Source of the DNA: Sulfitobacter sp. M05
Lineage (GTDB): Bacteria > Pseudomonadota > Alphaproteobacteria > Rhodobacterales > Rhodobacteraceae
DNA length: 64,000 nt
Direction of reading: 5' to 3'
NCBI RefSeq assembly: GCF_029285175.1
Contig: NZ_JABEDH010000002.1
Coordinates: forward strand, 744,001 to 808,000
Position 1 is the first letter of the stretch. The number at the start of each line of letters is the position of its first letter. Of the stretch, positions 25,694 to 49,683 are shown piece after piece. A program made the translations under genes and the position numbers. The notes below the pieces were generated by a model that made no database searches, was not told where the DNA came from, and saw only the letters and a program-made list of their open reading frames with translations.

Positions 25694-25797
25694 AGCGCCC
25701 GACCCTAAACATGAATCCCCCATACCCTGCCACGCTGTGCGTTCTCGGGCATCGGGGATACGAAATGCCTCAGGTTAAAGGCCGGGCACTTTAAACC
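25694..25797 (+). repeat. Dispersed inverted-repeat element, copy D
   Basis: Member of a four-copy family. The left end reads GCGCCC..CCCTAAACATGAATC and the right end CTCAGGTTAAAGG.CGGGCACTTTAAA; the ends are imperfect inverted repeats. The inner stem is ATCCCC (25715-25720) with GGGGAT (25754-25759), differing on both sides from the other copies so that pairing is kept. The loop is unrelated to the other copies. Confidence 0.75.
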
Positions 25798-26058
25798 AGT
25801 ACAGTGGGTCCAATACTTGTCCATATCGCAAAATAGACATCGATCCGGCCTTAAGCACTGGGCAAATCGCTGATGTTGCCTCGCCCTTCACGGTCCCGTC
25901 GACATTGCCCCACCCCTGCTGCGCGGCAATGACCATGCAACACACGGTGATCGGGCGTTGCATACCTGACCTAGCGTCCGATAATGCGCTGGCTGTCATA
26001 TTGCCCCCGGATGCGCTCAACTCTCCGCTCAAGGGCTTGTTTAATCATAAGGACAAAG

Positions 26059-26085
26059 CAGGCGAACCGGTTATTGGCTCGCCTG
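26059..26085 (-). terminator. Hairpin just past the ubiB stop
   Basis: Arms CAGGCGAACC (26059-26068) and GGCTCGCCTG (26076-26085), one mismatch, seven-base loop. It begins four bases after the ubiB stop but has no T-tract, so it may be a weak terminator or a 3'-end stabiliser. Confidence 0.45.
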
Positions 26086-26089
26086 TCTG

Positions 26090-27631
26090 TCAGAAAAATG
26101 CGTCAAACAGCAACAAGGCACCGACACCGGTCATCGCACCGACAAAACCGGCAACCACGAACCAGCGCTTACGCGGGCGGCGGTCCACTTGTGGCGGGTT
26201 GGTCTGACGCACAAGCGCGTCCTCGACCAGTCCGGGCAGGCGCGGACCAAAACGGGCCAGCACCATAGCTGTATGCGCCAGATCGGTGACAACCGCACGT
26301 GGACCGATGGATTTGCTGATGTAATCGGTGACAATCGGGCTGGCGACTTCCCAGATGTTCATATTCGGGTTCAGCGAGCGGGCGACACCTTCGACAACCA
26401 CCATGGTACGTTGCAGCAGGATAAGCTCGGTGCGCGTTTCCATGCCGAAACGTTCCGTGACTTCAAACAGATAGGCAAGCAGCCGCGCCATGGAAATATG
26501 TGTGGCGTTCATCCCGAATATTGGTTCACCCACAGCGCGCAGAGCGCGGGCAAATTCGTCAACGTCCTTATCCGCGGGGACGTACCCCGCCTCGAAATGC
26601 ACACGCGCCACACGTTTGTAATCGCGCCGGATAAAGCCAAACAGAATCTCGGCATAGACACGTCGGGTGTACTCATCAATGTGCCCCATGATTCCAAAAT
26701 CATAGGCGATAATGTTGCCGTTGGGCGCAACCTTGAGGTTGCCTTGGTGCATATCCGCATGGAAATACCCGTCGCGCAACGCATGGCTGAGGAACAGTTG
26801 CAGCACCCGGTTGCTGAGTGCGACTCGATCATGGCCCGCCGCATCAATGGCAGCGTTATCGCCCATCGACACGCCGTCAGCCCATTCCAGCGTCATCACA
26901 CGGCGTGACGAATGATTCCACTTGATCGCGGGCAGCTGAAATCCTTCGTCCTTAACCGTATTCGCTGCAAATTCAGAGGCAGCGGCGCTTTCCAGCCGTA
27001 GATCCAGTTCCCCCCGTACAACCCCGTCGAAATGTTCAATCACCTCCATCGGGCGCAGGCGGCGCGACCCGGGGGAAAACAGTTCGACCAGCCGGGCAGC
27101 AAGATAAAAGGCGTCGATGTCTTTGCGAAACGCCTTTTCGATGCCGGGGCGCAGGACTTTAACGGCGACGTCTTCGCCCGTGTCGACCAAGGTTGCGCGG
27201 TGGACCTGCGCGATGGACGCGGCCGCAACCGGTGGGCTGAAATCAGAGAAAATTTGCTCCAGCGGCTGGCCCAGCTCGTGCTCGATCTCGGCCTTGGCAT
27301 GCTCGATTGAAAACGGGGGCAACTTGTCTTGCAGCACGCGCAATTGCACCGCCAGATCATCACCAACCACATCAGGGCGGGTCGACAGTACCTGCCCGAA
27401 TTTGATGTAGGCCGGCCCAAGGGCAGTCAGGGCACGGGTGGCGGGTGGCATACTTGGATCACCGCGATACCCCAGAAACTTGAACGGCAAACCCAGCGCA
27501 CGGGCAACAAAGCGCAAGGCAGGTGTCGCCTCAAATGCGTCCAGCACAACGTTCATCGCGCCGGCACGCTCTAGCGTGGCACCGGTGCGGATCAGCCGCC
27601 AGATGTTATGCGGGCCCCTCAAAGCTTCCAA
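26090..27631 (-). CDS. ubiB: Ubiquinone biosynthesis protein UbiB (ABC1/ADCK-like kinase)
   Basis: 513-residue atypical protein-kinase-like ATPase needed for ubiquinone assembly. The KxGQ motif is visible as [15 protein letters not shown], followed by the nucleotide-loop equivalent [10 protein letters not shown], the lysine in [10 protein letters not shown], the HADMHQGN catalytic segment and YDFGIMG. Two C-terminal hydrophobic segments (end [24 protein letters not shown]) anchor it to the inner membrane. It starts inside the 3' end of ubiE (13-base overlap), forming a ubiE-ubiB operon, the standard arrangement. The protein was formerly named a hydroxylase; that activity is not supported for UbiB. 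Confidence 0.95.
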
Positions 27632-28368
27632 CCGGAATGCAGGGCAGCGATGCCCATGGTGAGGTTGCGATACTTTGCCTGGCCGAATCCGGCCTCGCGC
27701 ACCATGCCGAGAAACGTTTCCTGATCAGGGAAGTTACGAATGGATTCAACAAGGTACTGATAACTGTCACGATCATTCGCAATCAGCTCTCCCATGCGGG
27801 GAATGACATTGAAACTGTAGGCGTCGTAGGCCTTTTGCATCATCGGATTGGGCAGTTGGCTGAACTCCAGTACCATCAGGCGGCCACCGGGGCGCAGAAC
27901 ACGGTAGGCTTCGTTCAATGCTTCCTGCGGGCGGGTCACATTGCGGATGCCGAAACTGATTGTATAGACGTCAAAGGTGTTGTCCTCAAAGGGCAGCGCC
28001 ATTGCGTCCCCGACAACCCAATCCAGACTATCGGCCATTGCATCCGCTTCGGCGCGTTTGCGCCCTTCGACCAGCATACCTTCGGTGAGATCACAAACTG
28101 TTGCGTGACCAGACCCTGCCCGCTTCAGAAACTTGAACGATACATCCCCCGTACCACCGGCCACGTCCAACAGCTTTTGCCTGGCACGCGGGGCCAGCCA
28201 GTCCATCATCGCCTCTTTCCAGATGCGGTGAATGCCCACGCTCATCACGTCATTCATAATGTCGTATTTATTGGCGACATCGGAAAACAGGCTGCGGACC
28301 ATTCCGGCCTTGTCGTCCTCGCGAATGGTCTGGGAACCGAAATGCGTTGTGTTGTCAGTCATGCTCAT
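27619..28368 (-). CDS. ubiE: Ubiquinone/menaquinone C-methyltransferase UbiE
   Basis: SAM-dependent methyltransferase of 249 residues that C-methylates 2-octaprenyl-6-methoxy-1,4-benzoquinol. Characteristic segments are VFSDVA.KYDIMND near the N-terminus ([19 protein letters not shown]), the SAM motif [23 protein letters not shown] and ISFGIRNV. The start may be 28368 ([11 protein letters not shown]) or two codons downstream (28362). It overlaps ubiB and is divergent from mutM, whose ATG lies 86 bases away, a pairing typical of alphaproteobacteria. Confidence 0.95.
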
Positions 28369-28454
28369 GCCCCGATAGTGTCAAACCGGAGATATAGCGC
28401 GTAAAGGTCAGATACAAACAGCCATTTGCCGCAGGGCGGACAACAGGAGACTAC

Positions 28455-29306
28455 ATGCCAGAGCTTCCCGAAGTAGAGACCGTGATGCGTGGGTTGGCCC
28501 CCGCAATGCAAGGTGTCGTGATCGCACAGGCCGATGTGAACCGGCCTAATCTGCGCTGGCCGTTTCCCGTCGACATGGCGCAACGGCTTGCTGGGCAGAC
28601 CGTGCTGCAATTGCGCCGCCGTTCAAAGTACATTCTGGCTGATCTGAGTTCTGGAGAATCACTGCTGATTCATCTGGGGATGTCGGGGCGGATGCTGGTG
28701 TCTGGTGATCCGCTGGGACAATTTGTGCAGGACCACCCGATGGCTGAAAAACACGATCATGTCGTGTTTCACATGGCAAACGGCGCGCGGATTACCTTTA
28801 ACGATCCGCGGCGGTTCGGGGCCATGGATCTGCTGGATACGGCAACAGCCCCACAGCATAAATTGCTGGCATCACTCGGGCCGGAGCCTTTGGGCAACGA
28901 CTTTCATGAGGCGCATTTGATTGCTGCGTTCAAAGGGCGCAACACGCCGGTGAAATCCGCGCTGCTGGATCAAGGGATCATCGCGGGCCTGGGAAATATC
29001 TATGTCTGCGAGGCACTTTACCGGGCCGGCATCCATCCGGCGCGCAAGGCCGGCAAACTGTCGCGGCCCCGCGTCGGGGCGTTGGTACCGATCATCCGCG
29101 ACGTATTGGGCGAGGCAATCGAGGCGGGTGGATCATCACTAAAGGACTTTCGGCAAGCGGATGGAGAGTTGGGCTATTTTCAGCACAGTTTTGACGTCTA
29201 TGGCCGTGAAGGTGCCCCCTGCCGATCGCCTGAATGCCCACAGACAATCAAACGTATTGTGCAATCGGGCCGCTCGTCTTTCTACTGTAGTCAATGCCAA
29301 AGATAG
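28455..29306 (+). CDS. mutM: Formamidopyrimidine-DNA glycosylase
   Basis: Base-excision repair glycosylase/AP lyase for 8-oxoguanine and formamidopyrimidines, 283 residues. Pro1 nucleophile and Glu2 are in MPELPEVET. The helix-two-turn-helix region contains [26 protein letters not shown]. The zinc finger ends the protein: C...C (CRSPEC), then 16-20 residues, CSQC. All catalytic elements are intact. ATG 28455 follows CAGGAGAC. An enoyl-CoA hydratase gene follows after 65 bases. Confidence 0.97.
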
Positions 29307-29371
29307 CTTGAAACGCGACCTGCCCGTGGTATGCACAAACGCCAGTGCGTAACAATAAAAGAGCATTCTTG

Positions 29372-30148
29372 ATGGCTTATGAAACGATCACGTTAGATGT
29401 AGACAATCATGTGGCTTTGGTCACGCTTAACCGTCCTGACGCCCTGAATGCGCTCAATGACGTGTTGATGGGTGAACTGGCTGATGCCTTGAAAGGCTGC
29501 CAGGACAACGACAAAGTCCGCTGCATCGTGATCACCGGTTCGGAAAAGGCCTTTGCTGCCGGTGCCGACATTGCGATGATGAAAGACAAATCTTTCGTAG
29601 ATGTGTTTGCAGGTGATTTGTTCACCCCCGAATCCGAACAGATCATGCGGGTGCGCAAACCGATCATCGCTGCGGTTTCCGGCTATGCGTTGGGCGGTGG
29701 TTGTGAACTGGCGATGATGTGCGACTTTATCATCTGTTCCGAGACCGCAAAATTCGGCCAGCCCGAGATCAACCTTGGCGTTGTCGCCGGCATCGGTGGT
29801 ACTCAGCGCCTGACGCGTTTGGTGGGCAAGTCCAAAGCGATGGACATGAACCTGACAGGGCGCTTCATGGATGCCGCAGAGGCAGAGCGTTCCGGCCTTG
29901 TTTCACGCGTGGTGCCGGTGAAGAAACTGATGGAAGAGGCGCTGGGCGCTGCGGGCAAGATCGCCGAAAAATCCATGATGTCTGTGATGGTTGTCAAAGA
30001 AGCGGTGAACCGTGCCTATGAGGTGCCCTTGCGCGAAGGTCTGTTGTTCGAGCGCCGCGTGTTCCACTCGCTGTTTGCAACCGAGGACCAAAAAGAAGGC
30101 ATGAGCGCGTTTATCGAAAAGCGTGAAGCGCAGTTCCGGGATAAGTGA
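29372..30148 (+). CDS. Enoyl-CoA hydratase
   Basis: Crotonase-family enzyme of 258 residues that hydrates trans-2-enoyl-CoA in beta-oxidation. The oxyanion-hole segments are [16 protein letters not shown] and [18 protein letters not shown]. Catalytic glutamates fall in the family positions GGGCE and [20 protein letters not shown] chose ATG 29372 ([10 protein letters not shown]), the family-typical N-terminus; an upstream in-frame GTG adds nine residues. Its place between mutM and rpsT/dnaA is conserved in Rhodobacterales. Confidence 0.93.
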
Positions 30149-30198
30149 AAATGCTTTGTCACATGATGACTGTTACATCTTGATTCTGTAATACCGCA

Positions 30199-30699
30199 AT
30201 GTTCATTGCCCATCTTCCTGCTGGTTACTTGGCCACACACTTCCTTGCAGGAGAAAAGCAAAACAGGCAAAGTCTGGTCGCCGTTGGGCTTACCTGTTCT
30301 GCTTTGCCTGATTTCGACCTTCTGTGGTTTTACCTCGTCGACGACCGCCAGACAGCTCATCACGAATACATTTTTCATTGGCCTCTGTTCTGGTTGTCGA
30401 TTGCCTTGATCGCATGGATTGTAGCGCGTCTTTCGAACCGACGTGCATTGGGGCCGTACATTCTGGTCGGGCTGACCTGCCTCTTACTTCACATGTTTTT
30501 AGATAGTTTCGCCGCCGAAATCTATTGGCTGAGACCCTTCTCTGACTGGCATCTCAATCTGGTTGAAGTACCGGCAGGTTTCGGATGGTGGGTGCTTAAC
30601 TTTGTTTTCCATTGGACCTTTGCAGCTGAAATTCTGATCTGTCTGGCTGCAGGGTTTGTGTGGTGGCGAAGAAAATCGTTGCGTCCTAGCTCCACTTGA
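30199..30699 (+). CDS. Membrane-bound metal-dependent hydrolase-like protein (DUF457/YdjM type)
   Basis: 166-residue integral membrane protein with four to five hydrophobic segments. Conserved acidic and histidine residues sit at membrane edges: CSALPDFDLLWF, HHEYIFHWPLFW and LLHMFLDSFAAEIYWLRPF. These resemble the PDxD, HRG/HW and HxxxD pattern of the DUF457/YdjM family of presumed inner-membrane hydrolases. Substrate unknown. No strong ribosome site is seen before ATG 30199. It lies between the enoyl-CoA hydratase and rpsT on the same strand; whether it is co-transcribed is not clear. Confidence 0.65.
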   Translation: MFIAHLPAGYLATHFLAGEKQNRQSLVAVGLTCSALPDFDLLWFYLVDDRQTAHHEYIFHWPLFWLSIALIAWIVARLSNRRALGPYILVGLTCLLLHMFLDSFAAEIYWLRPFSDWHLNLVEVPAGFGWWVLNFVFHWTFAAEILICLAAGFVWWRRKSLRPSST

Positions 30700-30815
30700 T
30701 GACGTAATAACTGTGTCTGGCACGCGCGTCCCACAGCACACCTTTACAACTACCCCCCAACCTCGCTATAGCCGACCGATACATGCGCGTGCAGCCCGCT
30801 CAGGCTAGAATCACC

Positions 30816-30844
30816 TTCCCCGATGGGGAACCGGGATAACCGGT
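30816..30844 (+). other. Two adjacent small hairpins upstream of rpsT
   Basis: TTCCCC-gat-GGGGAA (30816-30830) is followed directly by ACCGG-loop-CCGGT (30830-30844). They lie 54-82 bases before the rpsT start, probably in its leader. S20 synthesis is autoregulated in E. coli, so a leader structure is plausible, but the promoter position is not known. Confidence 0.35.
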
Positions 30845-30897
30845 CAGGGTTTGGCGTCACGCGTCGAAATTTTGAATATACCTAAAGGGTGATCCGC

Positions 30898-31161
30898 ATG
30901 GCCAATACAGCACAAGCCAAAAAACGCGCACGTCAGAACGAAAAGCGTTTCCAAATCAACAAAGCACGTCGTTCGCGCATCCGCACGTACCTGCGCAAAG
31001 TTGAAGAAGCCATCGAATCCGGCGTTAAGGAAGACGCAGTTGCAGCACTGAAAGCGGCGCAGCCGGAACTGATGCGCGGCGTGACAAAGGGTGTGTATCA
31101 TAAGAACACCGCTTCGCGGAAAATGTCCCGTTTGGCGGCACGCGTTAAAGCGATTGCTTGA
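30898..31161 (+). CDS. rpsT: 30S ribosomal protein S20
   Basis: 87-residue basic protein of the small ribosomal subunit, [17 protein letters not shown]..., with the family-conserved MSRLAARV near the C-terminus. ATG 30898 lies eight bases after AAAGGG; an in-frame ATG three codons earlier overlaps that site. It binds 16S rRNA. It has a strong terminator behind it and stands immediately upstream of dnaA, as in other Rhodobacterales. Confidence 0.97.
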
Positions 31162-31203
31162 CGCTCTCGTCCTCATCGGACGAGAATCGGCTAATTGATT
31201 GAT

Positions 31204-31234
31204 AAAAAAGGCGTCGGCTTTCGACGCCTTTTTT
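31204..31234. terminator. Bidirectional terminator after rpsT
   Basis: GGCGTCG (31210-31216) and CGACGCC (31222-31228) with loop GCTTT, flanked by an A-run on the left and TTTTTT on the right. Confidence 0.9.
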
Positions 31235-31677
31235 GTTGCGTAAACGGTTACAAAAATTGTGAATAGATTCTTTTCGGCAATTCACGAGTCAAGTTTGAAG
31301 ATGTGTTGAAGCGCCCCCTGAACAATTGTTACCACAATAAGGCGATTCACGTCGCAGGGGGACAGGCTTTGGATCATCGGCGCAAGTTAACGCGTATCGG
31401 GTGAACCCAGGTACGCCAGAGGCCGGATGGTCTTAATAGCCGAAACTCGGATGCGCTCGCGCGTATCCGACCTGTCACAAAAGAATATAGTCGGGAATCC
31501 CGTCTGATGCATATGACCCAGCAGGGTGCATATCGTCGATGGGCCATCCTGTATGTGTCTATCGGGCGCAAGTCGGTTTCTTGAACGGGGCCGAGCCGAT
31601 TGGTGCGTGCCGATAGTTGGTTAGTTGGTAGGGTGCCGGAGTTTTCCGGTGTTGGAATGCAGGACAGAATGTACAAG
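31235..31677. other. Leader region upstream of dnaA
   Basis: About 440 gene-free bases. It contains the 10-bp palindrome AACAATTGTT (31321-31330) inside a pair of arms CCCCCTG (31314-31320) and CAGGGGG (31355-31361). Only one degenerate DnaA-box-like sequence (TGTGAATAG, 31258-31266) was found and no 13-mer AT cluster, so I do not call an origin. It must hold the dnaA promoter. Confidence 0.5.
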
Positions 31678-33045: not shown

Positions 33046-33101
33046 ACAGGTTTGCAACGACCTGTCTGTTTTAACGGAGGGGCCTTTGGCCCCTCTTGCA
33101 T
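33046..33101 (+). terminator. Two hairpins between dnaA and dnaN
   Basis: ACAGGT...ACCTGT (33046-33065), followed by CTGTTTT, and then GAGGGGCC-ttt-GGCCCCTC (33077-33095), followed by TTGCATTTG. The second is a strong stem with a poor T-tract. They probably terminate dnaA partially; dnaN starts about 90 bases further on. Confidence 0.65.
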
Positions 33102-33185
33102 TTGCATTCACAAAAGCCCAAAAGTCTTGCGAAAGACGGGGAACCGGGTAGTCTGCCTTTCCCGGCAGTCATTGGGAGACGGCAC

Positions 33186-34304: not shown

Positions 34305-34311
34305 GGGGCAC

Positions 34312-34354
34312 GGAAACTTTCAAAGTTTCCGGACGTTTTCTTTGAAAGAAAACG
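34312..34354. repeat. Two consecutive perfect palindromes between dnaN and recF
   Basis: GGAAACTTTCAAAGTTTCC (34312-34330) has nine-base arms around one C. Three bases later a second palindrome (34334-34354) has ten-base arms CGTTTTCTTT and AAAGAAAACG around one G. They fill most of the 59-base gap and end ten bases before the recF ATG. As RNA they would make two tight adjacent hairpins in the recF leader; no T-tract follows. Confidence 0.85.
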
Positions 34355-34363
34355 GGGCCGCCG

Positions 34364-37969: not shown

Positions 37970-38072
37970 TCACGTGTAGGTTCGGGCATAACTTTGCATT
38001 CCGGCGGAAATACTTGAGGAACACCGGGCCATTGCAAGAGGTGGTCGCGGAAATTCAGGCCGGTCGATAAGG

Positions 38073-38100
38073 TGGATCGCATGACGAAAGAAGCGATCCA
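38073..38100. other. Hairpin downstream of gyrB
   Basis: TGGATCGC (38073-38080) and GCGATCCA (38093-38100) are perfect inverted repeats around twelve bases, about 105 bases past gyrB. No T-tract follows. It overlaps a possible 25-codon frame at 38081. Confidence 0.45.
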
Positions 38101-38135
38101 GAATGAAGAAACGCAAAAGCCATTCAGCAGAGTTT

Positions 38136-38239
38136 ACAGCGTCCCGCCTTTAACCTGATCCACTAAACATCGCTTTTCGCGTTCGACCAAAGGGAGAGGC
38201 AGCGAACAAGCGATTCATGTTTAAGGCGGGACACTTTAG
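38136..38239 (-). repeat. Dispersed inverted-repeat element, copy A
   Basis: Terminal inverted repeats GCGTCCCGCCTTTAA (38139-38153) and TTTAAGGCGGGACAC (38220-38234). Inner stem ATCGCTTTTCGCG (38169-38181) pairs with GCGAACAAGCGAT (38202-38214), leaving one unpaired C. Oriented opposite to copy C (49.6 kb). Its right end supplies the stop codon of the phosphatase gene (TTA at 38236-38238). It lies between the convergent gyrB and phosphatase genes. Confidence 0.85.
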
Positions 38240-38970
38240 GTCTGCGGCAGCAACTCTTGTCGGCCCTGTGGCGTCAGGGTGAAACAGGTCGTCCCCTCAA
38301 ACACTGCGGCGGTCATCGGGTTGCCTCTGCCTGCACCGCTGTCGAGGTTCACGCGGTTGCCGTAGTGCTGGGCCTTGTCGACGGGTGTGTGCCCATGCAC
38401 GACCAGCTTCGGGTGCATCCGCTGATCGACGTGAAATTCCTTGCGGATCCACAACAGGTCTTCCTCGTCCTGATCGGCCAACGGCACACCGGGACGGATG
38501 CCCGCATGGGCAAAGAACAAAGCGTCGGTTTCATGGGACAGAACCGCGTCTTGCATGAATTTCACATGGGCCTCTGGGATAATGTCCCGGGCCATCTTAT
38601 GCACTTCCAACATGCGTGACCTTTGCGTGAATTCGATCCCATAAGAGGCCAGCGTGGTATCCCCGCCCAAACGTGGGTGCAGCCATGTCAAATCTATCGA
38701 CAGATAGGCTTCGTGCTGGGGATAATCCCGCATGAACCAGTGAAACATCCGGTCATGGTTTCCTTGCAGGAAGGTCCAGTTGCGCCCTTGCGCCTTCCCT
38801 TCAACCAACAGGTCCAACACAGCTTTGCTGTCTGGGCCGCGATCTGTGTAATCCCCGAGAAAAACGATTTCAGCATCGGGTCCGCCGTCAGCTTCGATCA
38901 GACCAAGCACCCGCTGCAAATCGGTCAACTGCCCGTGAATATCGCCCATAGTATAAATTGGTGTCGTCAT
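38236..38970 (-). CDS. PPP-type metallophosphoesterase
   Basis: 244-residue phosphatase of the serine/threonine-phosphatase (PPP) superfamily. The di-metal motifs are GDIHG (residues 9-13), GDYTDRGPDS, GNHD and the later HAGIRPG and VVHGHTPV. Bacterial relatives dephosphorylate proteins or nucleotides such as diadenosine tetraphosphate; I cannot choose. I took the start at 38970 (MTTPIYTMGDIHG) because the longer frame from 39030 reads through the serA terminator hairpin. It follows serA on the same strand but behind a terminator, so is likely separately expressed. Confidence 0.87.
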   Translation of the reverse strand: MTTPIYTMGDIHGQLTDLQRVLGLIEADGGPDAEIVFLGDYTDRGPDSKAVLDLLVEGKAQGRNWTFLQGNHDRMFHWFMRDYPQHEAYLSIDLTWLHPRLGGDTTLASYGIEFTQRSRMLEVHKMARDIIPEAHVKFMQDAVLSHETDALFFAHAGIRPGVPLADQDEEDLLWIRKEFHVDQRMHPKLVVHGHTPVDKAQHYGNRVNLDSGAGRGNPMTAAVFEGTTCFTLTPQGRQELLPQT

Positions 38971-38984
38971 ATCGGGTGCCCCAT

Positions 38985-39014
38985 AAAAAACGCCCGCCCC
39001 GGATCGGGGCGAGC
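38985..39014 (-). terminator. serA terminator
   Basis: On the minus strand CGCTCGCCCC, a five-base loop and GGGGCGGGCG (arms 39005-39014 and 38991-39000, one mismatch) are followed by TTTTTT. It begins about 28 bases after the serA stop. Confidence 0.88.
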
Positions 39015-39041
39015 GTTGTGTGTCTAACACCGCCTGCTGAG

Positions 39042-40637: not shown

Positions 40638-40669
40638 GTTGTTGGTCCTTCATAAAACTGGGGGGTGGA

Positions 40670-40723: not shown

Positions 40724-40725
40724 GT

Positions 40726-41865: not shown

Positions 41866-42022
41866 TGATGCTATCCTCTCAGATATGCGCCCTTCGTTGG
41901 GGAAGGGTGTCCCACTGACGCGTTTAAGGGGCGTCGCGGGCTGGCACAATCGCAAAAACGGGGCTAGACCGCCGCTTGATCGCTTTTTAACGACATTCCT
42001 GACGCGGATCGGAAACTTTGAC

Positions 42023-42898: not shown

Positions 42899-42916
42899 TC
42901 GGTTGCCTTTCCAGGG

Positions 42917-42967
42917 AGGGGCGGATCATGCGCCCCGCCTTGTGAGGAATTAGGGTCAGGGCCCTAA
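42917..42967. terminator. Hairpins between convergent serB and asparaginase genes
   Basis: GGGGCG-loop-CGCCCC (42918-42936) and TTAGGG-loop-CCCTAA (42950-42967), in the 89-base gap between convergent stops. No long T-tract. Confidence 0.45.
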
Positions 42968-42987
42968 GGTGCCGCCGTTGGTCGTCG

Positions 42988-43968
42988 TCAGATAAGACCT
43001 GCTGCCGGTTTCAGAATGCCCGTTTCGATGCCGCGCCAGTTCTTGATGGGTGCGTTCAGGCGTTTCAGCGTTGCAGGGTGATTGGCGTCAAGAACGCCCA
43101 GCCTGACCAAGAGTGCCGCAATTGCACATTCGGCTGCGCGCGTTGTGCCGCAGGCCGCTTTTAAGGCAATGCCCAGTTTTTGCTCTGGCAGGATCGCGAT
43201 AAAGAACCCCTCTGCGCCGGTTTTCAACGCAACTTTACCGTCCATCGCGCGCATTAACTCTGTGCAGGCGCGGGTCTCGCCGGCGACCAGTTCCGGGTGC
43301 AGACGCATCGCCTGATGCAAACGTGCTTCGGCTGATCCTTCGGGGGCGGCGGCGAAATGCGCCATGGCGCGGGCCATACCGTGCAAGGTGCAGGCGAAAT
43401 TCGGGGCGGAGCAGCCGTCGATCCCGTACCCCGGCGAGGTTTCCTGCGTGACGTTTTCAAACGCTTCAAGGCAGGCCCGTTGCAGCGGGTGATCCGGCGC
43501 GACATAGTCAGGGCCGGCCTTGAGATGTTGGGTCAGTGTCAGAAAACCTGCATGTTTTCCCGAGCAATTGTTGTGTATCTGGCAGGGCGTTTTGCCTGCG
43601 CGGATCAGTTCTTCACGCGCGTCCTTGTCAGATGGGTCTTGCGGGCCGCAGCGGAAATCATCGTCAGACAGGCCCAGTGTTTTCAACCATGTCCCAACGC
43701 GATCGGTGTGGATCGCAGCCCCTTGATGCGAGGCGCAAGACAGGGCCAGTTGCTCTGTTGTCAGCCCATATTCGTCAGCCGCGCCTGAAGTGATCAGCGG
43801 TAGGGCCTGTATCATTTTGGAGGAGGACCGCGGCAGGACCACCCGAGTTGGATCACCCCAGGCCTGCACAATTTCACCGCTTGCATCACAGATCACGGCA
43901 TGGCCAGAGTGAACGCTTTCAAGGAAAGGTCCGCGCCAAACTTCGGTAAAGGGGGCCGCCTGTGTCAT
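42988..43968 (-). CDS. Class 3 (Rhizobium etli-type) asparaginase
   Basis: 326-residue asparaginase of the PF06089 family, unrelated to the E. coli enzymes. The serine-lysine catalytic motif is LPRSSSKMIQALPL (residues about 45-58), with LSCASHQG and IHNNCSGKHAGFLTL also conserved; the cysteine and lysine of NNCSGKH belong to the zinc site in R. etli ReAV. The reaction is hydrolysis of asparagine to aspartate and ammonia. It is convergent with serB and has no partner gene. Confidence 0.88.
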   Translation of the reverse strand: MTQAAPFTEVWRGPFLESVHSGHAVICDASGEIVQAWGDPTRVVLPRSSSKMIQALPLITSGAADEYGLTTEQLALSCASHQGAAIHTDRVGTWLKTLGLSDDDFRCGPQDPSDKDAREELIRAGKTPCQIHNNCSGKHAGFLTLTQHLKAGPDYVAPDHPLQRACLEAFENVTQETSPGYGIDGCSAPNFACTLHGMARAMAHFAAAPEGSAEARLHQAMRLHPELVAGETRACTELMRAMDGKVALKTGAEGFFIAILPEQKLGIALKAACGTTRAAECAIAALLVRLGVLDANHPATLKRLNAPIKNWRGIETGILKPAAGLI

Positions 43969-44145
43969 ATTTCACCTTCAAATTAAGCGAAATCCTGCCA
44001 ATCAGGGTTTCGTCTGTCGCCTGTTTCGCATTAATATGCTCTTTGTCGAAAAGATAACAGGCACTTGAAGAAAGAGCGATGCGCAAAGCACCGCCAATAG
44101 GGCTTGGTCGGTATTGAGGTTTAGGACAGCTTGGAGGCTGGACAA

Positions 44146-44676
44146 ATGGGAATGATTAAGAGAATCGGGTGCGCGGTTGGATTGGCGGCTGTGTTGGCGA
44201 CGGCTGCATCCGCACAACAGCAAAGCACAAACCGTGTGGCTGCGAAAACCGACTGGAGCGTCTTTGTCGAAGACAATCCGACAGAGTGTTGGGGCGTCTC
44301 GACCCCGAAAGAAACGGTTAACTCCCGTGATGGTCGTGTTGTGGCGGTGAATCGCGGACAAACTCTTTTGATGGTGTTCTATCGTCCCTCCGCAGGTGCC
44401 AAAGGGCAGGTGGCCTTTACTGGCGGATATCCTTTTGCATCTGGATCAACGGTCAAAATGGAAATCTCGGGCAACACATTTGAGCTTTTTACCGAAGGCG
44501 AGTGGGCGTGGCCTGCGACCACGGATGACGACAGCAAGATCATCACGTCGATGAAGCGCGGAGCAAATGCGGTATTGTCTGGCCAATCCGGGCGCGGGAC
44601 CAAAACCAAAGATACATTTTCACTGTTGGGCTTTACCGCAGCTGTTGAAGACGCGGCCAAACGCTGCGGCGGGTGA
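44146..44676 (+). CDS. Invasion-associated locus B (IalB) family secreted protein
   Basis: 176-residue exported protein with a clear signal peptide (MIKRIGCAVGLAAVLATAASA, cleavage after ASA). The mature part has the IalB pattern DWSVFVEDNPTECWGVSTP and a C-terminal pair of cysteines with the first (ECWGVS and AAKRCGG), likely a disulfide. Named from Bartonella, but widespread in free-living Rhodobacterales, where its role is unknown. I chose ATG 44146 because GGAGG lies eight bases upstream; an in-frame GTG/TTG at 44131 overlaps that site. Confidence 0.85.
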   Translation: MGMIKRIGCAVGLAAVLATAASAQQQSTNRVAAKTDWSVFVEDNPTECWGVSTPKETVNSRDGRVVAVNRGQTLLMVFYRPSAGAKGQVAFTGGYPFASGSTVKMEISGNTFELFTEGEWAWPATTDDDSKIITSMKRGANAVLSGQSGRGTKTKDTFSLLGFTAAVEDAAKRCGG

Positions 44677-44867
44677 TGGCGCGCGGGGTGGGCCTTGTGC
44701 CCATCTGTCGGGCGGCTGATATCGGATGGTGCGTTTGATGTGGCGGCGGGATTGAGTTTATTGGCAAGATGAAGCCGAGGCCTGCGCGCCACAGGGTCGG
44801 CTTGGTCTTTTGCAAATGCCGCGCACTCCTATATAGCAGGCACATCCTTATAAATTGAGTCGCCCCC
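44677..44867. other. Gap between IalB-like gene and rlmN
   Basis: 191 bases with the second copy of the 24-bp motif (44751-44774). No terminator with a T-tract. Must hold the rlmN promoter. Confidence 0.4.
44751..44774 (+). repeat. 24-bp intergenic motif, copy 2
   Basis: Identical over 24 bases to 25470-25493 and in the same orientation relative to the upstream gene (74 bases past the IalB-like stop). Sequence after the motif differs. Confidence 0.75.
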
Positions 44868-46067
44868 ATGTCTGCCACAGCACCGATTACCCAAGATGTT
44901 CATACTATGCCGCGCAAGCTGCCGGAGGGGCCGCAGAACCTGATCGGTTTGACGCGTGAGGCGATGCGCGATGCGTTGATTGCCCACGGTACACCGGAAA
45001 AGCAGGCCAAGATGCGGGTCGGACAAATCTGGCAATGGATTTACGGCTGGGGCGTGCGTGATTTTGCCGAAATGACCAACCTGTCCAAGGCGTTCCGGGC
45101 AGAATTGGCCGAGAATTTTGTTATCGAGATTCCCGAGGTGGTAACCCGTCAGGTGTCCGAGGATGGCACGCGCAAATATCTGGTGCGGATTGCGGGCGGT
45201 CATGAGGTTGAGATTGTTTACATTCCCGAGGAGGGCCGCGGCACCCTATGTGTGTCGTCGCAGGTTGGCTGTACTCTGACCTGTTCATTCTGCCATACCG
45301 GCACACAAAAGCTGGTGCGCAATCTGACCGCCGGGGAAATCATCGGGCAGGTTCTGGTCGCGCGTGACGATCTGGGGGAATGGCCTGAAATTGGGGCGAA
45401 ACATGTCGAAGGGCGCTTGTTGTCCAACATCGTGCTGATGGGCATGGGCGAACCTTTGTATAACTTTGAAAACGTGCGTGATGCGATGAAGATCGCGATG
45501 GACCCCGAAGGGATCCAGCTTTCGCGACGCCGGATTACCCTGTCGACCTCGGGTGTCGTGCCGGAGATTGCCCGCACCGCTGAGGAAATCGGCTGTCAGT
45601 TGGCAATTTCGTTTCACGCGACCACCGACGAGGTGCGTGACAAGCTGGTGCCGATCAACAAAAAGTGGAACCTTGAGGTCTTGCTGGAGGCCTTGCGTGC
45701 CTATCCCAAAGTCTCGAACTCGGAGCGGATCACTTTTGAATATGTCATGCTACACGGGGTGAACGACAGTGACGAGGATGCCCATCGTCTGGTCGAATTG
45801 ATCAAGGGTATCCCAGCTAAGATCAACCTGATCCCGTTTAATGAATGGCCCGGCGCGCCCTACAAACGATCTTCGAACAACCGAATTCGTGCGTTTTCCG
45901 AGATTATCTATAACGCCGGCTATGCCTCGCCGGTGCGCAAACCGCGGGGCGAGGACATCATGGCGGCCTGTGGGCAGTTGAAATCCGCTACCGAGCGGTC
46001 TCGCAAGTCCCGCAAGCAGATCGCGGCGGAGGCGGGCCTTTCTGATAGCGTTTCGAGTAAAGTTTGA
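44868..46067 (+). CDS. rlmN: Dual-specificity 23S rRNA A2503 / tRNA A37 C2-methyltransferase RlmN
   Basis: Radical SAM methyltransferase of 399 residues. The Fe-S ligands are in [11 protein letters not shown] (CxxxCxxC), followed by [18 protein letters not shown] and the catalytic cysteine of MAACGQL near the C-terminus ([11 protein letters not shown]). Preceded by [10 protein letters not shown], typical of the family. Both cysteines for the methyl-transfer cycle appear present. The last codons and the TGA lie within the left edge of a dispersed inverted-repeat element. Confidence 0.95.
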
Positions 46068-46148
46068 CTCCCTTGTTCGCTGCCTCCCCCCTTGGTCGAA
46101 CGCGAAAAGGGATGTGTGATGCCTGAAATTAGATTCGAAAAGCTTTAA
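46061..46148 (+). repeat. Dispersed inverted-repeat element, copy B (diverged)
   Basis: Core TTCGCTGCCTC.CCCTTGGTCGAACGCGAAAAG is shared with copies A and C. Inner stem TCCCTTGTTCGC (46069-46080) pairs with GCGAAAAGGGA (46102-46112); relative to A and C one G-C pair is swapped to C-G on both arms. The outer repeats have decayed (right end AAAGCTTTAAG only). It spans the gap from the rlmN TGA (46065-46067) to just before the next start. Confidence 0.7.
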
Positions 46149-46646
46149 GTGGCAGACTGGTGCTTTTCCGTGCCTTTGTCTGGGGGTGGGGCCTTGTGGA
46201 TGATGCCCTGTCCGACTGCCGACCGTCTGGCCGCGCTGCGCAAGAACGGTGTCGACACGGTGCTGTCGATGTTGCCCCCTGCCGAGGCGGCGGCGCTGGG
46301 CATGGCAGAGGAAGCGGGCATCTGTGCGGCGCTTGGCATGTCCTTCCTGTCACACCCTATTCCTGATTTTGGTCTTCCTGATGGGGCCGATTTCGACGAT
46401 TTGATTGCAGAGCTGTGCGCCAGCCTTGCAGCGGGGCGGTCCATTGTCGTGCATTGCCGCGCCGGAATCGGGCGGACAGGGATGGCCGTTGCATGCACCC
46501 TGGTCGGGCAGGGCCAAAGTGGCGCGGATGCCATTCGGATTGTCAGCGCTGCCAGAGGTGTTTCAATCCCCGATACAGTCGAACAAGGCGATTTTATCAT
46601 TTCTTTCGCGCAGAGGGCAAATCGTGATGTTGGCTCAAGGAACTGA
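46149..46646 (+). CDS. Protein-tyrosine phosphatase, dual-specificity type
   Basis: 165-residue cysteine-dependent phosphatase. The P-loop is VVHCRAGIGRTG (C-x5-R followed by TG), at about residue 101, with a candidate general acid in PIPDFGLPDG. The N-terminus MADWCFSVPLSGGGALWMMPCPTADRLAAL matches small phosphatases of Rhodobacterales. The start is GTG at 46149, immediately after the CTTTAA end of a dispersed repeat; no ribosome site is obvious, and no in-frame ATG precedes it. Substrate unknown. Confidence 0.82.
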   Translation: MADWCFSVPLSGGGALWMMPCPTADRLAALRKNGVDTVLSMLPPAEAAALGMAEEAGICAALGMSFLSHPIPDFGLPDGADFDDLIAELCASLAAGRSIVVHCRAGIGRTGMAVACTLVGQGQSGADAIRIVSAARGVSIPDTVEQGDFIISFAQRANRDVGSRN

Positions 46647-46794
46647 TTTAAAAGAGGTTTCGCCGGATTCAACGTAAGGGAAGCTGACGGGCGCCTCCCT
46701 GAAATGACCCATGTTCCGCCGCAATCCGGGGCAAATCTTGCCTTGGTTGGTCTGCAGATTGTTTCCATTACAATAGGCAATCAGGAATAAACCA

Positions 46795-47007
46795 ATGTCC
46801 ATTATGTACAACAAAGACCCTTTCATCACTGCGCAGGTTATCGACCTTGTTCTGCGCGAGCGCGACTGTTCCTTGTCAGCACGCGAATGGAAGCACCGCC
46901 TCGCCGGATATGGCTATGCCATTAAAGACACCGATCATGGTCAGATCGTTGAAACCCTGCCGCATCACGTTGAAGTTGGTGTCTTGCCCGCAGAAGCCAG
47001 CGCCTGA
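46795..47007 (+). CDS. Small conserved-looking hypothetical protein
   Basis: 70-residue acidic-basic mixed soluble protein (MSIMYNKDPFITAQVIDLVLRERD...). No signal, membrane segment or known motif. AGGAA lies seven bases before ATG 46795, codon use looks normal, and the segment EWKHRLAGYGYAIKDTDHGQIVETLP reads like a folded helical domain. I do not recognise a family. It ends two bases before an inverted repeat shared with the convergent LOG-like gene. Confidence 0.6.
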   Translation: MSIMYNKDPFITAQVIDLVLRERDCSLSAREWKHRLAGYGYAIKDTDHGQIVETLPHHVEVGVLPAEASA

Positions 47008-47008
47008 A

Positions 47009-47029
47009 GCAGACCCTTGCTGGGTCTGC
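47009..47029. terminator. Hairpin between convergent genes
   Basis: GCAGACCC (47009-47016) and GGGTCTGC (47022-47029) around five bases. It exactly fills the 22-base gap between the small hypothetical gene and the LOG-like gene. No T-tract. Confidence 0.55.
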
Positions 47030-47875
47030 CTACCTGCCGGGAATACTGTCCCGCGTGGTTGCCGGCTCCCAGTTCTCGATCAACGCCATCGCTTCCTGCG
47101 CGGTTTCGACAAATCTGAAGAGATCCAGATCTTCGGCTGAAATGGTGCCAGCATCAGCCAGGGCATCCCAGTTGATAATTTTCTGCCAGAATTCCTTGCC
47201 GAACAGCAGGAAAGGCACCCGTTGCATACGGCCTGTTTGGATCAATGTCAGGGCCTCGAACAATTCATCCATGGTACCAAAACCACCTGGGAACACGCAG
47301 ATCGCCTTTGCCCGCATCAGGAAATGCATCTTGCGGATGGCAAAGTAGTGAAAGTTGAAACACAGCTCTGGCGTGACATATTCGTTTGGTGCCTGCTCGA
47401 ACGGTAGCACGATGTTCAAACCGATGGACCGTCCACCGGCGTCAATTGCGCCACGGTTGCCCGCCTCCATCACGCCCGGTCCGCCGCCTGTAACGATGAC
47501 GTCTTCGGTGCCACCGCCCGCCATGGATTTTAACGTCATCAACCGGGCGAATTCGCGGGTCTCGTCATAGAATTTCGACAGCTCTGCCAGCGTTTCGGTG
47601 CGTGCGCTGTCTTTTTTGGCGGGTTCCGGGATACGTGCGCCACCAAAAAGAACGATGGTCGATGTGATGCCTTCGGCGTCCAGCATCAACTCCGGCTTTA
47701 ACAGTTCAAGCTGAAGCCGCACGGGGCGCAATTCATCGCGGCACATAAAATCATTGTCGGTAAACGCCAGTTGATAGGCCGGTGCGCGTGTTTGTGGTGT
47801 GCTTGGTGCTGCTTGGGCGGCCGTGCGATCCGAATGTGCATCACGCAAGGGATGGCTGCGTTGGTCGTCTCTCAT
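47030..47875 (-). CDS. LOG family (TIGR00730) Rossmann-fold protein
   Basis: 281-residue protein of the so-called lysine-decarboxylase-like family, whose studied members release cytokinin bases from nucleotides (phosphoribohydrolase). The signature is visible: VTGGGPGVMEAGNRGA and the PGGFGTMDELFE loop (CVFPGGFGTMDELFEALTLIQTGR). An N-terminal extension of about 70 residues precedes the Rossmann core (IVLFGGARIPEP). I chose ATG 47875; the open frame continues 46 codons further but antisense to the dapD leader. Actual substrate here is unknown; AMP or another nucleotide is possible. Confidence 0.85.
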   Translation of the reverse strand: MRDDQRSHPLRDAHSDRTAAQAAPSTPQTRAPAYQLAFTDNDFMCRDELRPVRLQLELLKPELMLDAEGITSTIVLFGGARIPEPAKKDSARTETLAELSKFYDETREFARLMTLKSMAGGGTEDVIVTGGGPGVMEAGNRGAIDAGGRSIGLNIVLPFEQAPNEYVTPELCFNFHYFAIRKMHFLMRAKAICVFPGGFGTMDELFEALTLIQTGRMQRVPFLLFGKEFWQKIINWDALADAGTISAEDLDLFRFVETAQEAMALIENWEPATTRDSIPGR

Positions 47876-48027
47876 GAAAGTCTCCGAAAATGGCTCTGCG
47901 TCAGGGTGGCTTGCTTGGGGCCGACTTGCAAGACGAAGCGGGCAGTGGATCAAATAACGTTGAACGATTGCGCTGATGCATGGCGAACGATAAAGCGGTG
48001 GAAAGTTATTCATCAGGAGTTACCGCC

Positions 48028-48855
48028 ATGTCCAACGCCCAACTTGAGACCGCCATCGAAGCCGCATGGGACGCCCGTGACCAGATCACCTCGGCCACAA
48101 CCGGCGAAACCCGCGAGGCGATCGAGGATACGTTGAATGCATTGGACAGCGGATCATTGCGGGTTGCGGAAAAACAGGATGACGGCAGCTGGCATGTGAA
48201 CCAATGGGCCAAGAAGGCGGTGCTTCTGGGCTTCCGGATCAAGGACATGGAACATCAGGAAGGTGGGCCGCAGGGTGCCGGCTGGTGGGATAAGGTCGAT
48301 TCCAAGTTCAAAGGCTGGGGCGATGTGCAGTGGAAAGAGGCAGGTTTCCGTGCTGTTCCAAACTGTGTGGTACGTAAATCCGCCTATATCGCACCGGGCG
48401 TGGTGCTGATGCCATCCTTTGTGAACATTGGTGCCCATGTCGACAGCGGCACGATGGTTGATACCTGGGCAACAGTCGGATCCTGCGCACAGATCGGCAA
48501 GAACGTGCATTTGTCCGGCGGTGTTGGCATTGGCGGTGTGTTGGAACCGATGCAGGCCGGTCCGACAATTATCGAGGACAATTGTTTTATCGGTGCGCGT
48601 TCTGAGGTGGTCGAAGGCTGTATCGTACGCGAAGGGTCCGTTTTGGGCATGGGCGTCTTTATCGGCCAGTCGACCAAAATTCTGGACCGCGAAACCGGTG
48701 AAGTCATGTATGGTGAAGTACCATCCGGTTCGGTTGTGGTCGCAGGTTCGATGCCGTCGAAAAACGGCGTAAACCTCTACTGCGCGGTGATCGTAAAACG
48801 CGTGGACGAAAAGACACGTTCAAAGACCTCCATCAACGAACTGCTGCGCGACTGA
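48028..48855 (+). CDS. dapD: 2,3,4,5-tetrahydropyridine-2,6-dicarboxylate N-succinyltransferase
   Basis: Lysine/diaminopimelate pathway enzyme of 275 residues, the family-typical size. N-terminal helical domain, then a hexapeptide left-handed helix ([50 protein letters not shown]). I chose ATG 48028 because AGGAG lies nine bases upstream (48014-48018); an upstream in-frame start adds 16 residues. The next dap gene, dapE, is 3.8 kb away, separated by four other genes. Confidence 0.95.
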
Positions 48856-48921
48856 TAGGCCGCGAGGGAACCAAACAGGGCCTGTCAGAGTTTTCCTTCT
48901 AAATTGAATTAGGAGAATGGA

Positions 48922-49176
48922 ATGACAGGTCTTGGATGGTTCGCGGCGCTGATCGTAGGGGGCCTTGCGGGTTGGATCGCTGAAAAGATCATGAACCGCG
49001 ACCACGGGTTATTGTTGAACGTCTTTATGGGGATTGTCGGCGCAATGCTGTTCAATGCGATCCTCGGGCTGATCTTTGGTTCTTCGCTCGGCGGCTGGAT
49101 CGGCCAGCTGTTTGCAGGTGTCGTCGGTGCATGTGTGCTGATTGCCGGGATCCACGCCTTTCGCGGACGGTCCTGA
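48922..49176 (+). CDS. GlsB/YeaQ/YmgE family small membrane protein
   Basis: 84-residue protein with three hydrophobic, glycine-rich segments: GLGWFAALIVGGLAGWIAEKIM, LLNVFMGIVGAMLFNAILGLIFG and GQLFAGVVGACVLIAGIHAF. This is the transglycosylase-associated (Transgly_assoc) family, often stress-induced in enterobacteria; biochemical function unknown. AGGAG six bases before ATG 48922. Confidence 0.87.
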   Translation: MTGLGWFAALIVGGLAGWIAEKIMNRDHGLLLNVFMGIVGAMLFNAILGLIFGSSLGGWIGQLFAGVVGACVLIAGIHAFRGRS

Positions 49177-49244
49177 TCCGAGGCTTTTCAATCACGACAG
49201 ATCACGCTAGGGCTGCTTTTCAAGTGAAAAAGGTGGCCCTTGTT

Positions 49245-49598
49245 ATGTCCGATCCTCAGAAAACCAGTAAAAAGTCACGCCAACAGGTTTTCACGCTGGT
49301 GGTCCAAATTGGCCGCAAAGACGGGGACGGCTTGCCGGACAAGGCCACTGGTGCCGCGCTTATGTGCTTTGCCTCTGGTGTCGATGAGGCCGAGGCCGTG
49401 CGCGAGACCGTTGCCATTCTTAAACAGGCAGATACCAACCCGCTGGACGTCACCGGTTACGGGACGCTTGCGGAACGCGAGACCGAGGGCCACGAGATTG
49501 ACGCAGAAGAACGCGCGCTGATGCAGCGGGCACTGGATGAGAACTCGGTGATCATCGCACAGATGACGCCGTTTTTCGATGAGAGCGCCCAGCCTTAA
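49245..49598 (+). CDS. Conserved-type hypothetical protein
   Basis: 117-residue acidic soluble protein (MSDPQKTSKKSRQQVFTLVVQIGRKDGDGLPDKATGAALMCFASGVDEAEAVRETVAILKQ...). No signal or membrane segment; pattern suggests one alpha/beta domain. I do not recognise a named family, though it reads as a genuine protein with AAGGTGG before ATG 49245. The frame is open upstream to 49131 but overlaps the GlsB gene. The stop codon TAA (49596-49598) lies inside the left end of repeat copy C. Confidence 0.65.
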   Translation: MSDPQKTSKKSRQQVFTLVVQIGRKDGDGLPDKATGAALMCFASGVDEAEAVRETVAILKQADTNPLDVTGYGTLAERETEGHEIDAEERALMQRALDENSVIIAQMTPFFDESAQP

Positions 49599-49683
49599 AC
49601 ATGAATCGCTTTCGCGGCCGCTCCCTTTGGGCGAACGCGAAAAGCGATATATGATGGCTTAGGTTATAGGCGGGACGCTTTAA
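49584..49683 (+). repeat. Dispersed inverted-repeat element, copy C
   Basis: Left part GCGCCCAGCCTTAAACATGAATC and right part GGTTATAGGCGGGACGCTTTAA form imperfect outer repeats. Inner stem ATCGCTTTCGCG (49605-49616) pairs with CGCGAAAAGCGAT (49636-49648) with one bulge. It fills the whole gap between two convergent genes and carries both stop codons (TAA 49596-49598 on plus, TTA 49680-49682 for minus). Confidence 0.85.

Follow-up and report, generated by a model that had tools for sequence, protein, structure and literature searches.

The 64,000-nucleotide stretch of Sulfitobacter sp. M05 DNA analyzed here (the window) contains four related elements, which we assign to three subfamilies of putative MITE copies. 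Element A (subfamily I, 25690..25794, plus strand, boundaries refined) has the ends CTATAGCGCCCGACC and GGCCGGGCACTTTAA and carries an inner hairpin with a type I core (25715..25759, plus strand, from ATACCCTGCCACGC to CTCGGG), whose stem is formed by ATCCCC (25715-25720) and GGGGAT (25754-25759). The ends of element B (subfamily II, 38134..38239, minus strand) pair almost perfectly, and its end at 38239 is the source of the stop codon for the minus-strand open reading frame 38236-39030; the inner hairpin of B (38169..38214, minus strand, type II core) is bounded by ATCGCTT and AAGCGAT. The plus-strand open reading frame 44868-46067 terminates within element C (subfamily III, 46042..46148, plus strand, ends CTGATAGCGTTTCGAG and TTCGAAAAGCTTTAA), which contains an inner hairpin with a type II core (46069..46112, plus strand, TCCCTT to AAGGGA). 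Element D (subfamily II, 49580..49683, plus strand) is located between the convergent open reading frames 49131-49598 (plus) and 49680-50774 (minus), the stop codons of both lying inside the element; its inner hairpin also has a type II core (49605..49648, plus strand, ATCGCTT to AAGCGAT).

The first-pass annotation had proposed four homologous elements at these places, and all four were recovered with refined edges, the left edge of C at 46061 having been set too far in. The inner stems that it had listed do exist; their labels were permuted, since ATCCCC/GGGGAT belongs to A and not to D, ATCGCTT/AAGCGAT to B and D, and TCCCTT/AAGGGA to C. The 15-bp terminal inverted repeats attributed to A are in fact found in B (38136) on the minus strand.

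Copies, distribution and gene context

Altogether, 85 copies were tabulated in the host genome (G000), with a consensus of 106 nt and three subfamilies (I, II and III), so that at least 85 places are occupied. This number is based on 90 aligned places, of which five were excluded: C1:1085067 (a fragment), C9:192465 (a chimaera), C9:306624 (half an element), C7:56365 (poorly alignable) and C7:530440 (aligned to its neighbour). A second chimaera, C1:396101, was included in subfamily II; both chimaeric copies combine a left end of subfamily III with a right end of subfamily II. Diverged and solo fragments (for example L044 and L174-L177) are outside the 85. Searching the host genome with element A yielded at least 42 matches at E<=1 (best non-self match 1.2e-36), and the queries D and C yielded at least 41 and 40 matches, respectively. 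The right-end pattern occurred 92 times when up to three mismatches were allowed, versus seven times for the reversed control pattern. The copies found in the host agree with the earlier description of a dispersed, non-coding MITE-type element that encodes no transposase.

A covariance-model search, the check proposed for these elements, was run on 120 genomes of the host's family and detected the element in 31 of them (host included), the copy numbers per genome being lower bounds. In G069 approximately 100 copies are present, with 208 end matches versus none for the control (matches were not paired individually). The family was found on chromosomes of Rhodobacterales and on conjugative plasmids; viral contigs searched with two core patterns and phages searched with the subfamily II consensus gave no match. 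The Rfam matches were to tRNAs and the serC leader, with two more below threshold, and all of them lie outside the elements; in the literature searched we found no paper describing this repeat.

Most copies are intergenic. In 39 of the 85 copies the insertion TA is part of the neighbouring gene's stop codon, versus 7 of 53 YTAR sites. One copy interrupts the gene series of a type IV secretion operon directly ahead of virB8; the gene preceding virB8 there encodes a protein matching Pfam PF07996, which we take to be the VirB5-type family. A plasmid gene contains a 99-bp (33-codon) element in frame, and this insert is missing from the homologue in L205.

Insertion sites and IS630-type ends

A recent insertion in G069 has the structure ACC-TA-[TAGCATTTC..GAAACGCTT]-TA-TCCCGCC, with an exact duplication of TA. 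Twelve of the 14 orthologous loci have a single TA at the junction; the remaining two (G189 and G191) have a diverged element-like stretch there. Three older plasmid insertions showed no clear TA duplication, from which we had at first concluded that target duplication is generally lacking; this reading was overturned by the G069 site. At one plasmid site, 60 of 187 records were listed, of which 16 are filled and 44 are shorter by about 98 bp. Other candidate empty sites were discarded: synteny around gyrB was of no use for element B, since gene order is not conserved in the genus, and at the LysR and repA plasmid loci the flanks were too diverged or only one flank was kept among the matches listed.

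IS630-family elements of 1054-1064 bp were found in related genomes. They encode a DDE_3 transposase (HTH_23 and DDE_3 domains in the G023 element), and their ends match the MITE at the corresponding ends. Agreement is 24/28 and 25/28 between the subfamily II ends and those of the G108 IS630, 22/28 and 23/28 between the subfamily III ends and those of the G023 element, and 24/28 and 22/28 between the MITE ends of G157 and the IS630 of G024. As a measure of chance, the best match of the 2726 TA-starting 28-mers in the window to any of six MITE ends was 17/28; the MITE ends of G069 reach at most 20/28 with known IS ends. By reading, the right end of the MITE (..GATGGCTCAGGTTAA in subfamily II) also resembles the codons with which the transposase gene of the IS630 elements finishes (..TATGCCTCAGGTTAA).

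The host genome yielded no DDE_3 transposase, and the neighbourhoods of solo ends in the host (L048, L049) showed no obvious transposase reading frame by reading. Ten further element-bearing genomes were searched for DDE_3, and seven gave none (G069, G157, G062, G064, G197, G060 and G086). Among the three with DDE_3, matching ends were present only in G108, which holds both the elements and the matching IS630. DDE_3 loci from the host genus had matching ends in only 5 of 20 cases.

Hairpin structure and competing explanations

Base pairing was analyzed on 43 sequences picked for a length of 106 nt and for alignability, with the structure written by hand from the sequences. The outer stem, formed by the terminal inverted repeats, has 19 pairs, and 81.3% of its cells are paired; both stems covary between lineages (25 of 26 pairs). 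The covariation seen by the first-pass annotation holds between lineages; among copies of the same subfamily, I and II lack it and III shows it weakly. In the outer stem, subfamily I showed five double compensations versus 6.8 after shuffling (95 broken cells) and subfamily II one versus 2.4 (76 broken cells); the weak excess in subfamily III was reached by 13 of 500 shuffles for the outer and 39 of 500 for the inner stem. Because copies of subfamilies I and II decay without compensation beyond shuffling, selection for an RNA or single-stranded DNA hairpin at each locus, which had been deduced from the compensatory changes, is not supported. One transposase must fit both terminal inverted repeats of an IS630 element, and this would explain why the arms of the outer stem match.

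These data bear on the view that the element is a functional RNA hairpin (a terminator, 3'-end stabilizer or signal for mRNA processing) that was spread by duplication and is under selection at every locus. Elements B and D fold strongly (z -4.7 to -5.3), which would fit such a role, as would the covariation between lineages and the copies at gene 3' ends and before virB8. However, A, C and the copy L010 fold little better than shuffled sequences (z -1.4, -0.3 and -0.1), compensation is absent within subfamilies I and II, 44 of the 60 listed plasmid records lack the element at the corresponding place in the operon, and no element has an Rfam match, so that we regard this explanation as improbable. 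Somewhat less doubtful, though still unlikely, is that the inner-stem covariation is a mutational by-product of template switching at quasi-palindromes, one arm being corrected from the other with no structural selection. It concerns the inner stem only and is compatible with a MITE; it would account for joint arm changes between lineages without any per-copy function, the elements are near-palindromic, and the chimaeric copies agree with it. Yet template switching should act within subfamilies too, where double changes in I and II are no commoner than in shuffles, and the core separating the two stems is conserved from genus to genus (in a sequence set itself picked by core).

REPINs moved by a RAYT (a Y1 tyrosine transposase) are likewise small symmetric hairpin elements with many copies, alike in size, symmetry, intergenic position and copy number, and Y1 transposases are encoded in G007, G011 and G024, which also carry relatives of element D. 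The host itself has no Y1_Tnp (PF01797), which is present in 13 of 36 genomes of the genus. Mobilizer class, target duplication and ends all differ: the TA duplication at the recent insertion largely contradicts a REPIN, the element ends match IS630 terminal repeats, and the GTAG tetranucleotide, a REP-type motif, was not seen by reading as a conserved end in the aligned copies. The REP/BIME origin suggested earlier was dropped on these grounds, and we give it hardly any weight. Membership in the CcrM-associated intergenic repeats (CIR) is scarcely more credible. Size and host class agree, and a GANTC site (GAATC, positions 24-28) is present in all three subfamily consensus sequences, although no more than 37 of the 85 copies keep it there; in comparison by description, however, CIR have two arms and a linker with GANTC at the loop, whereas here a single long hairpin carries it at the junction of outer and inner stem.

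The best explanation, and in our view a very probable one judging from the sequences, is that the elements are non-autonomous MITE copies of about 95-106 bp, of the RUP type, mobilized in trans by DDE transposases of the IS630 family (Tc1/mariner type). The ends consist of TA followed by NAGC(G/A)(T/C)(T/C)(T/C)C and run to TGA; they would be terminal inverted repeats of IS630 type, about 25-28 bp long. The target is a TA, mostly in a YTAR context, whose duplication was seen at the one recent insertion. In compact genomes this TA often belongs to a TAA or TAG stop codon, and the base following TA in the element can rebuild the stop, giving TAA at the right end and, in subfamily II, TAG at the left; insertion would thereby leave the protein whole. 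Inserted copies mostly decay independently, and those upstream of genes appear to be lost with time, judging from two sets, one old and one recent, that come from different genomes. The host copies would now be orphans. Several findings speak against this reading: DDE_3 is missing from the host and from most of the other element-bearing genomes searched, few of the DDE_3 loci have fitting ends, the G069 ends agree less well, the older plasmid sites show no clear TA duplication, elements with different terminal repeats have the apical core in common, and subfamily III has its weak excess of compensated pairs.

Relation to known repeats and significance

The repeat unit of pneumococcus (RUP), for which mobilization by IS630-Spn1 was proposed, is described as a non-coding, tightly folded element of about 107 bp with TA ends, IS630-like terminal repeats, paired ends and about 110 copies (PMC3049150, PMC2229807). 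The present family resembles RUP, so described, in size, non-coding nature, TA ends, IS630-type terminal repeats, copy number and paired ends, and differs in sequence, host and base composition, in its conserved apical core common to several terminal-repeat families and in its copies at stop codons. RUP shares its genome with IS630-Spn1, whereas the present host yielded no IS630 partner; RUP-type membership is thus lowered for this host, not for the family. From the same order, MITEPye1 of Paracoccus yeei has direct as well as terminal repeats and forms a long stem-loop; it is described as tied to IS1182-family elements, with 1-3 copies per chromosome (PMC11578231). As described, the palindromic elements of Rickettsia (RPE), also alphaproteobacterial, can sit in frame within genes, as does the 99-bp plasmid-gene insert, although most copies here are intergenic; CIR of Caulobacter and Brucella share the length (about 110 bp), alphaproteobacterial hosts and, at the level of the consensus, the GANTC site, but are two-armed with a linker, GANTC at the loop and no known mobilizer, in contrast to the single hairpin with IS630 ends (PMC2229807). 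The element appears to be a new family of a known kind of mobile DNA.

The apical core is common to elements whose terminal repeats differ, which plain MITE theory leaves unexplained. A rough classification covered 179 elements, 49 of which had been chosen through core I, and left 13 cores and 2 ends without assignment; in it, core I was combined with terminal repeats of six groups and core II with those of five. We tentatively consider, as a minority possibility, that the core is a selected module (such as an RNA signal, or a site at which a transposase or host factor docks) passed between mini-transposons using different IS630 transposases, so that core and terminal repeats would evolve interchangeably; the CcrM-type GAATC site at the left end would couple the timing of transposition to that of replication.

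Taken together, a repeat widespread in Rhodobacterales chromosomes and conjugative plasmids is now identified. It provides a natural system for studying the persistence of mini-transposons after loss of their transposase and the tolerance of insertions at stop codons, and its presence or absence can serve as a marker when the history of a type IV secretion operon is traced. A mobile element can produce strong covariation between lineages without RNA function at each locus, which calls for caution in the discovery of structured RNAs.

A dispersed hairpin element in the host genome

Sequence comparison and alignment showed that the window elements A (25690-25794, + strand), B (38134-38239, - strand), C (46042-46148, + strand) and D (49580-49683, + strand) are homologous, as the first-pass annotation had proposed; their edges were refined after alignment of the host copies. 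The host genome (G000, 4.07 Mb in 17 contigs) was searched with BLAST at E<=1, scoring 40 candidates per search so that the counts are lower bounds: among the matches listed, element A was found at no fewer than 42 places, element D at no fewer than 41 and element C at no fewer than 40. The claim of a repeat family depended on further copies, and these were found: after alignment 85 were tabulated, 35 in subfamily I (containing A), 31 in II (B and D) and 19 in III (C), with mean identities to their own consensus of 0.88, 0.91 and 0.83, respectively. The common end pattern occurs 92 times in this genome, compared with 7 occurrences of the reversed control pattern.

All three subfamilies have a consensus of 106 nt, whose two ends pair in an imperfect outer stem of about 25 bp. 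Further inwards the 3' side has a bulge of 9-10 nt, and beyond it lie an inner stem and, at the tip, the apical core. The sequence of core I is CCAATACCCTGCC(A/G)CGC..CTCGGGACATTGG, and that of core II is TTCGC(T/G)GCCTC..GAACGCGAA. The inner stems described by the first-pass annotation are real; their assignment to the copies had been permuted, with ATCCCC/GGGGAT belonging to A, ATCGCTT/AAGCGAT to B and D, and TCCCTT/AAGGGA to C. Likewise, the near-perfect terminal repeat attributed to A is that of B. Compared with shuffled sequences, folding is much stronger for B and D (z -4.7 to -5.3) but not for A (z -1.4) or C (z -0.3); of two more subfamily I copies, one folds better than shuffles (z -3.9) and one does not (z -0.1).

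Copies cluster at four stretches (L033, L012, L062 and L055), and in L033 a subfamily III element directly abuts the end of a subfamily I element. Within L053 (contig C1, 1050417-1051519), one subfamily II copy is flanked by tRNA genes on both sides. Short palindromes resembling the two ends without a core are present in L175, in L051 and on contig C7 (1145411-1145463). The stretch adjoining element B (window 38037-38140) shows 77-82% identity to places in three related genomes (G027, G028 and G033), away from their gyrB match, and may be a second dispersed sequence or a gene remnant. The serC leader (Rfam RF00517, 69 bits) lies at 41866-41917 on the - strand of the window.

Covariation and decay of the copies

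Covariation was tested on 43 sequences with a structure written from these same sequences, which favours it. Changes on both sides were seen in 25 of 26 pairs, and doubly changed cells numbered 211 compared with 82 in shuffles. None of 500 shuffles reached the observed covariation score, paired percentage, doubly changed pair count or doubly changed cell count; the number of further pair types was reached by 11 of the 500. When pairing partners were slid by 1-3 columns, the score was 0.06-0.25 compared with 0.49 for the written structure, which was drawn from the same sequences. The covarying stems that had been claimed are thus borne out between lineages; among host copies there is no excess of compensation in subfamilies I and II and a weak one in III. 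The outer stem has 5 doubly compensated and 95 broken cells in subfamily I (6.8 compensated in shuffles) and 1 and 76 in II (2.4 in shuffles), and the inner stem 4 and 47 in I (2.7 in shuffles) and 0 and 33 in II (0.3 in shuffles). In subfamily III, 11 compensated cells were counted in the outer stem (shuffles 6.7; 13 of 500 reach 11) and 5 in the inner stem (shuffles 2.6; 39 of 500 reach 5). With so little compensation within subfamilies, host copies mostly decay regardless of the hairpin. Between lineages the structure is maintained, presumably in those still multiplying. In DDE transposons one transposase must bind both terminal inverted repeats, so that their arms are expected to match, and covariation of the outer stem between lineages is therefore expected.

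The consensus carries GAATC, a CcrM-type GANTC site, at positions 24-28. Its decay pattern was noticed after the fact and then scored on the 85 host copies: in subfamily I no other window of five bases decays as fast as GAATC, and in II and III the fastest-decaying window starts at position 25. The deviation of GAATC is 0.22 compared with 0.11 elsewhere in I (p 2e-5), with p 0.004 in II and p 0.11 in III. Selection against stray sites of methylation may be the cause.

Candidate mobiliser and insertion sites

The family is best explained as a MITE, a short mobile element without transposase, mobilised by an IS630-family (DDE_3) transposase. In the host genus, 12 of 36 genomes have DDE_3 transposases; a search of the host genome found none. 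Five of 20 DDE_3 loci examined (two in G023, one each in G025, G032 and G024) turned out to be elements 1057-1064 bp long whose ends closely resemble the MITE ends, and the resemblance is closer still for a 1054-bp element in G108. The G108 element matches the ends of subfamily II at 24/28 and 25/28 positions and those of subfamily I at 20/28 and 22/28; subfamily III matches the G023 element (22/28 and 23/28), and the MITE of G157 the G024 element (24/28 and 22/28). The ends in G069, a relative rich in copies, reach at most 20/28 with any of the compared IS elements. As a measure of chance, six MITE ends were compared with the 2726 28-mers that start with TA in the window outside the elements, and the highest match was 17/28. 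Judged by these end-by-end matches to different IS630 elements, the terminal-repeat variants of the MITEs track IS630 variants. The G023 element has two reading frames carrying HTH_23 and DDE_3, and the right end of the MITE looks similar to the closing codons of the IS transposase gene. A finding that speaks against the simplest form of this explanation is that DDE_3 was not found in 7 of 10 element-bearing genomes searched, including the G069 assembly with its roughly 100 similar copies; among the three that have it, only G108 has matching ends. Where a genome has no matching IS630, its copies are orphans unless the transposase is missing from the assembly or belongs to a family other than DDE_3.

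A recent G069 insertion reads ACC-TA-[element]-TA-TCCCGCC, and 12 of 14 orthologous loci from relatives have an uninterrupted junction with a single TA, showing TA duplication at this site. The other two (G189 and G191; L333 and L334) carry at that TA a diverged stretch resembling an older element, as if the TA had been used earlier. On plasmids, an element lies in the type IV secretion (T4SS) operon between a VirB5-type gene (PF07996) and virB8 (PF04335) in 16 of 60 listed records (187 matching), the gap being about 98 bp shorter in the other 44. Comparison of five filled and five empty junctions placed this insert at the upstream gene's stop codon; target duplication was not clearly seen, nor was it at a second site, a 100-bp insert between virB8 and virB9. 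A third plasmid copy, with core I, lies within a plasmid gene, to which it adds 99 bp (33 codons) in frame. It is found at about 6000-6100 in L180 and L181, from Dinoroseobacter and Pontibrevibacter plasmids, and reads ..APMSREREAWQGIGA.. in L180; the homologue in L205 lacks it.

A codon model, for which 36 long ORFs of the window served as training set, was used to call the genes flanking the host copies. At the 103 confidently readable flanks of the 85 copies, the gene is directed at the element in 93 cases and away from it in 10. Both flanks were readable for 30 copies, and 26 of these lie between convergent genes, compared with 13 of 60 adjacent called gene pairs in the window (Fisher p 3e-9). 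The insertion TA is that of the neighbour's stop codon in 39 of 85 copies; in the window, 7 of 53 YTAR sites outside genes or in stop codons are in stop codons. An open frame entering the right end may also stop at offset 20, and confident cases number 27 at offset 4 versus 2 at offset 20; reading into the element therefore does not by itself account for the coincidence. Of 20 copies in the recent G069 set, 8 sit at a stop codon (p 0.02 relative to the window, a control from a different genome) and 22 of 36 readable flanking genes point toward the element, an orientation different from that of the old host set (Fisher p 2e-4). The coincidence thus recurs in the recent set and the orientation bias is weaker there, which suggests, across different genomes, that the former arises at insertion and the latter from later loss of harmful copies.

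Distribution and relation to known repeats

The search of relatives proposed by the first-pass annotation, carried out with a covariance model built from 43 sequences, gave matches in 31 of 120 Rhodobacteraceae genomes (host counted) and 30 of 119 genera. The exact core I pattern matched 49 genome stretches, which by their titles we take to be Rhodobacterales or alphaproteobacterial MAGs, except Nitratireductor alexandrii. Plasmid records of the Roseobacter group contain core I in 84 cases (78 typed conjugative) and core II in 30 (20 typed conjugative). The two core patterns gave no matches in viral contigs, and the subfamily II consensus, the only query used there, none in phage records. In G069, the end pattern with up to three mismatches gave 105 forward and 103 reverse matches (control 0), from which about 100 elements of 95 nt are estimated; their core differs from I and II, and 20 fetched elements have a mean pairwise identity of 0.94.

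No Rfam family matches the elements, and no title or abstract on Rhodobacterales, Sulfitobacter or Roseobacter in a literature search, with most subscription journals lying outside its coverage, describes the family. A term search of the main text of a review of prokaryotic MITEs (PMC10969869) found no mention of IS630 or alphaproteobacteria. Among the systems compared, the nearest is the pneumococcal RUP, described as a 107-bp repeat with TA at its paired ends, IS630-Spn1-like repeats and 110 copies in one strain (PMC3049150; PMC2229807). PMC3049150 also reports a pneumococcal repeat that is enriched near 3' ends of convergent genes. MITEPye1 of Paracoccus yeei is also a MITE of Rhodobacterales, but is reported as tied to IS1182-family elements with 1-3 copies per chromosome (PMC11578231). 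CIR resembles the present elements in size and GANTC site, but is described as two-armed (section 7 of PMC2229807), and RPEs share in-frame insertion with them (PMC2229807). Taken together, the repeat is real and abundant, and the surprise is moderate: it lies in the strong covariation between lineages, common cores on different terminal repeats, insertion at stop codons and large orphan populations.
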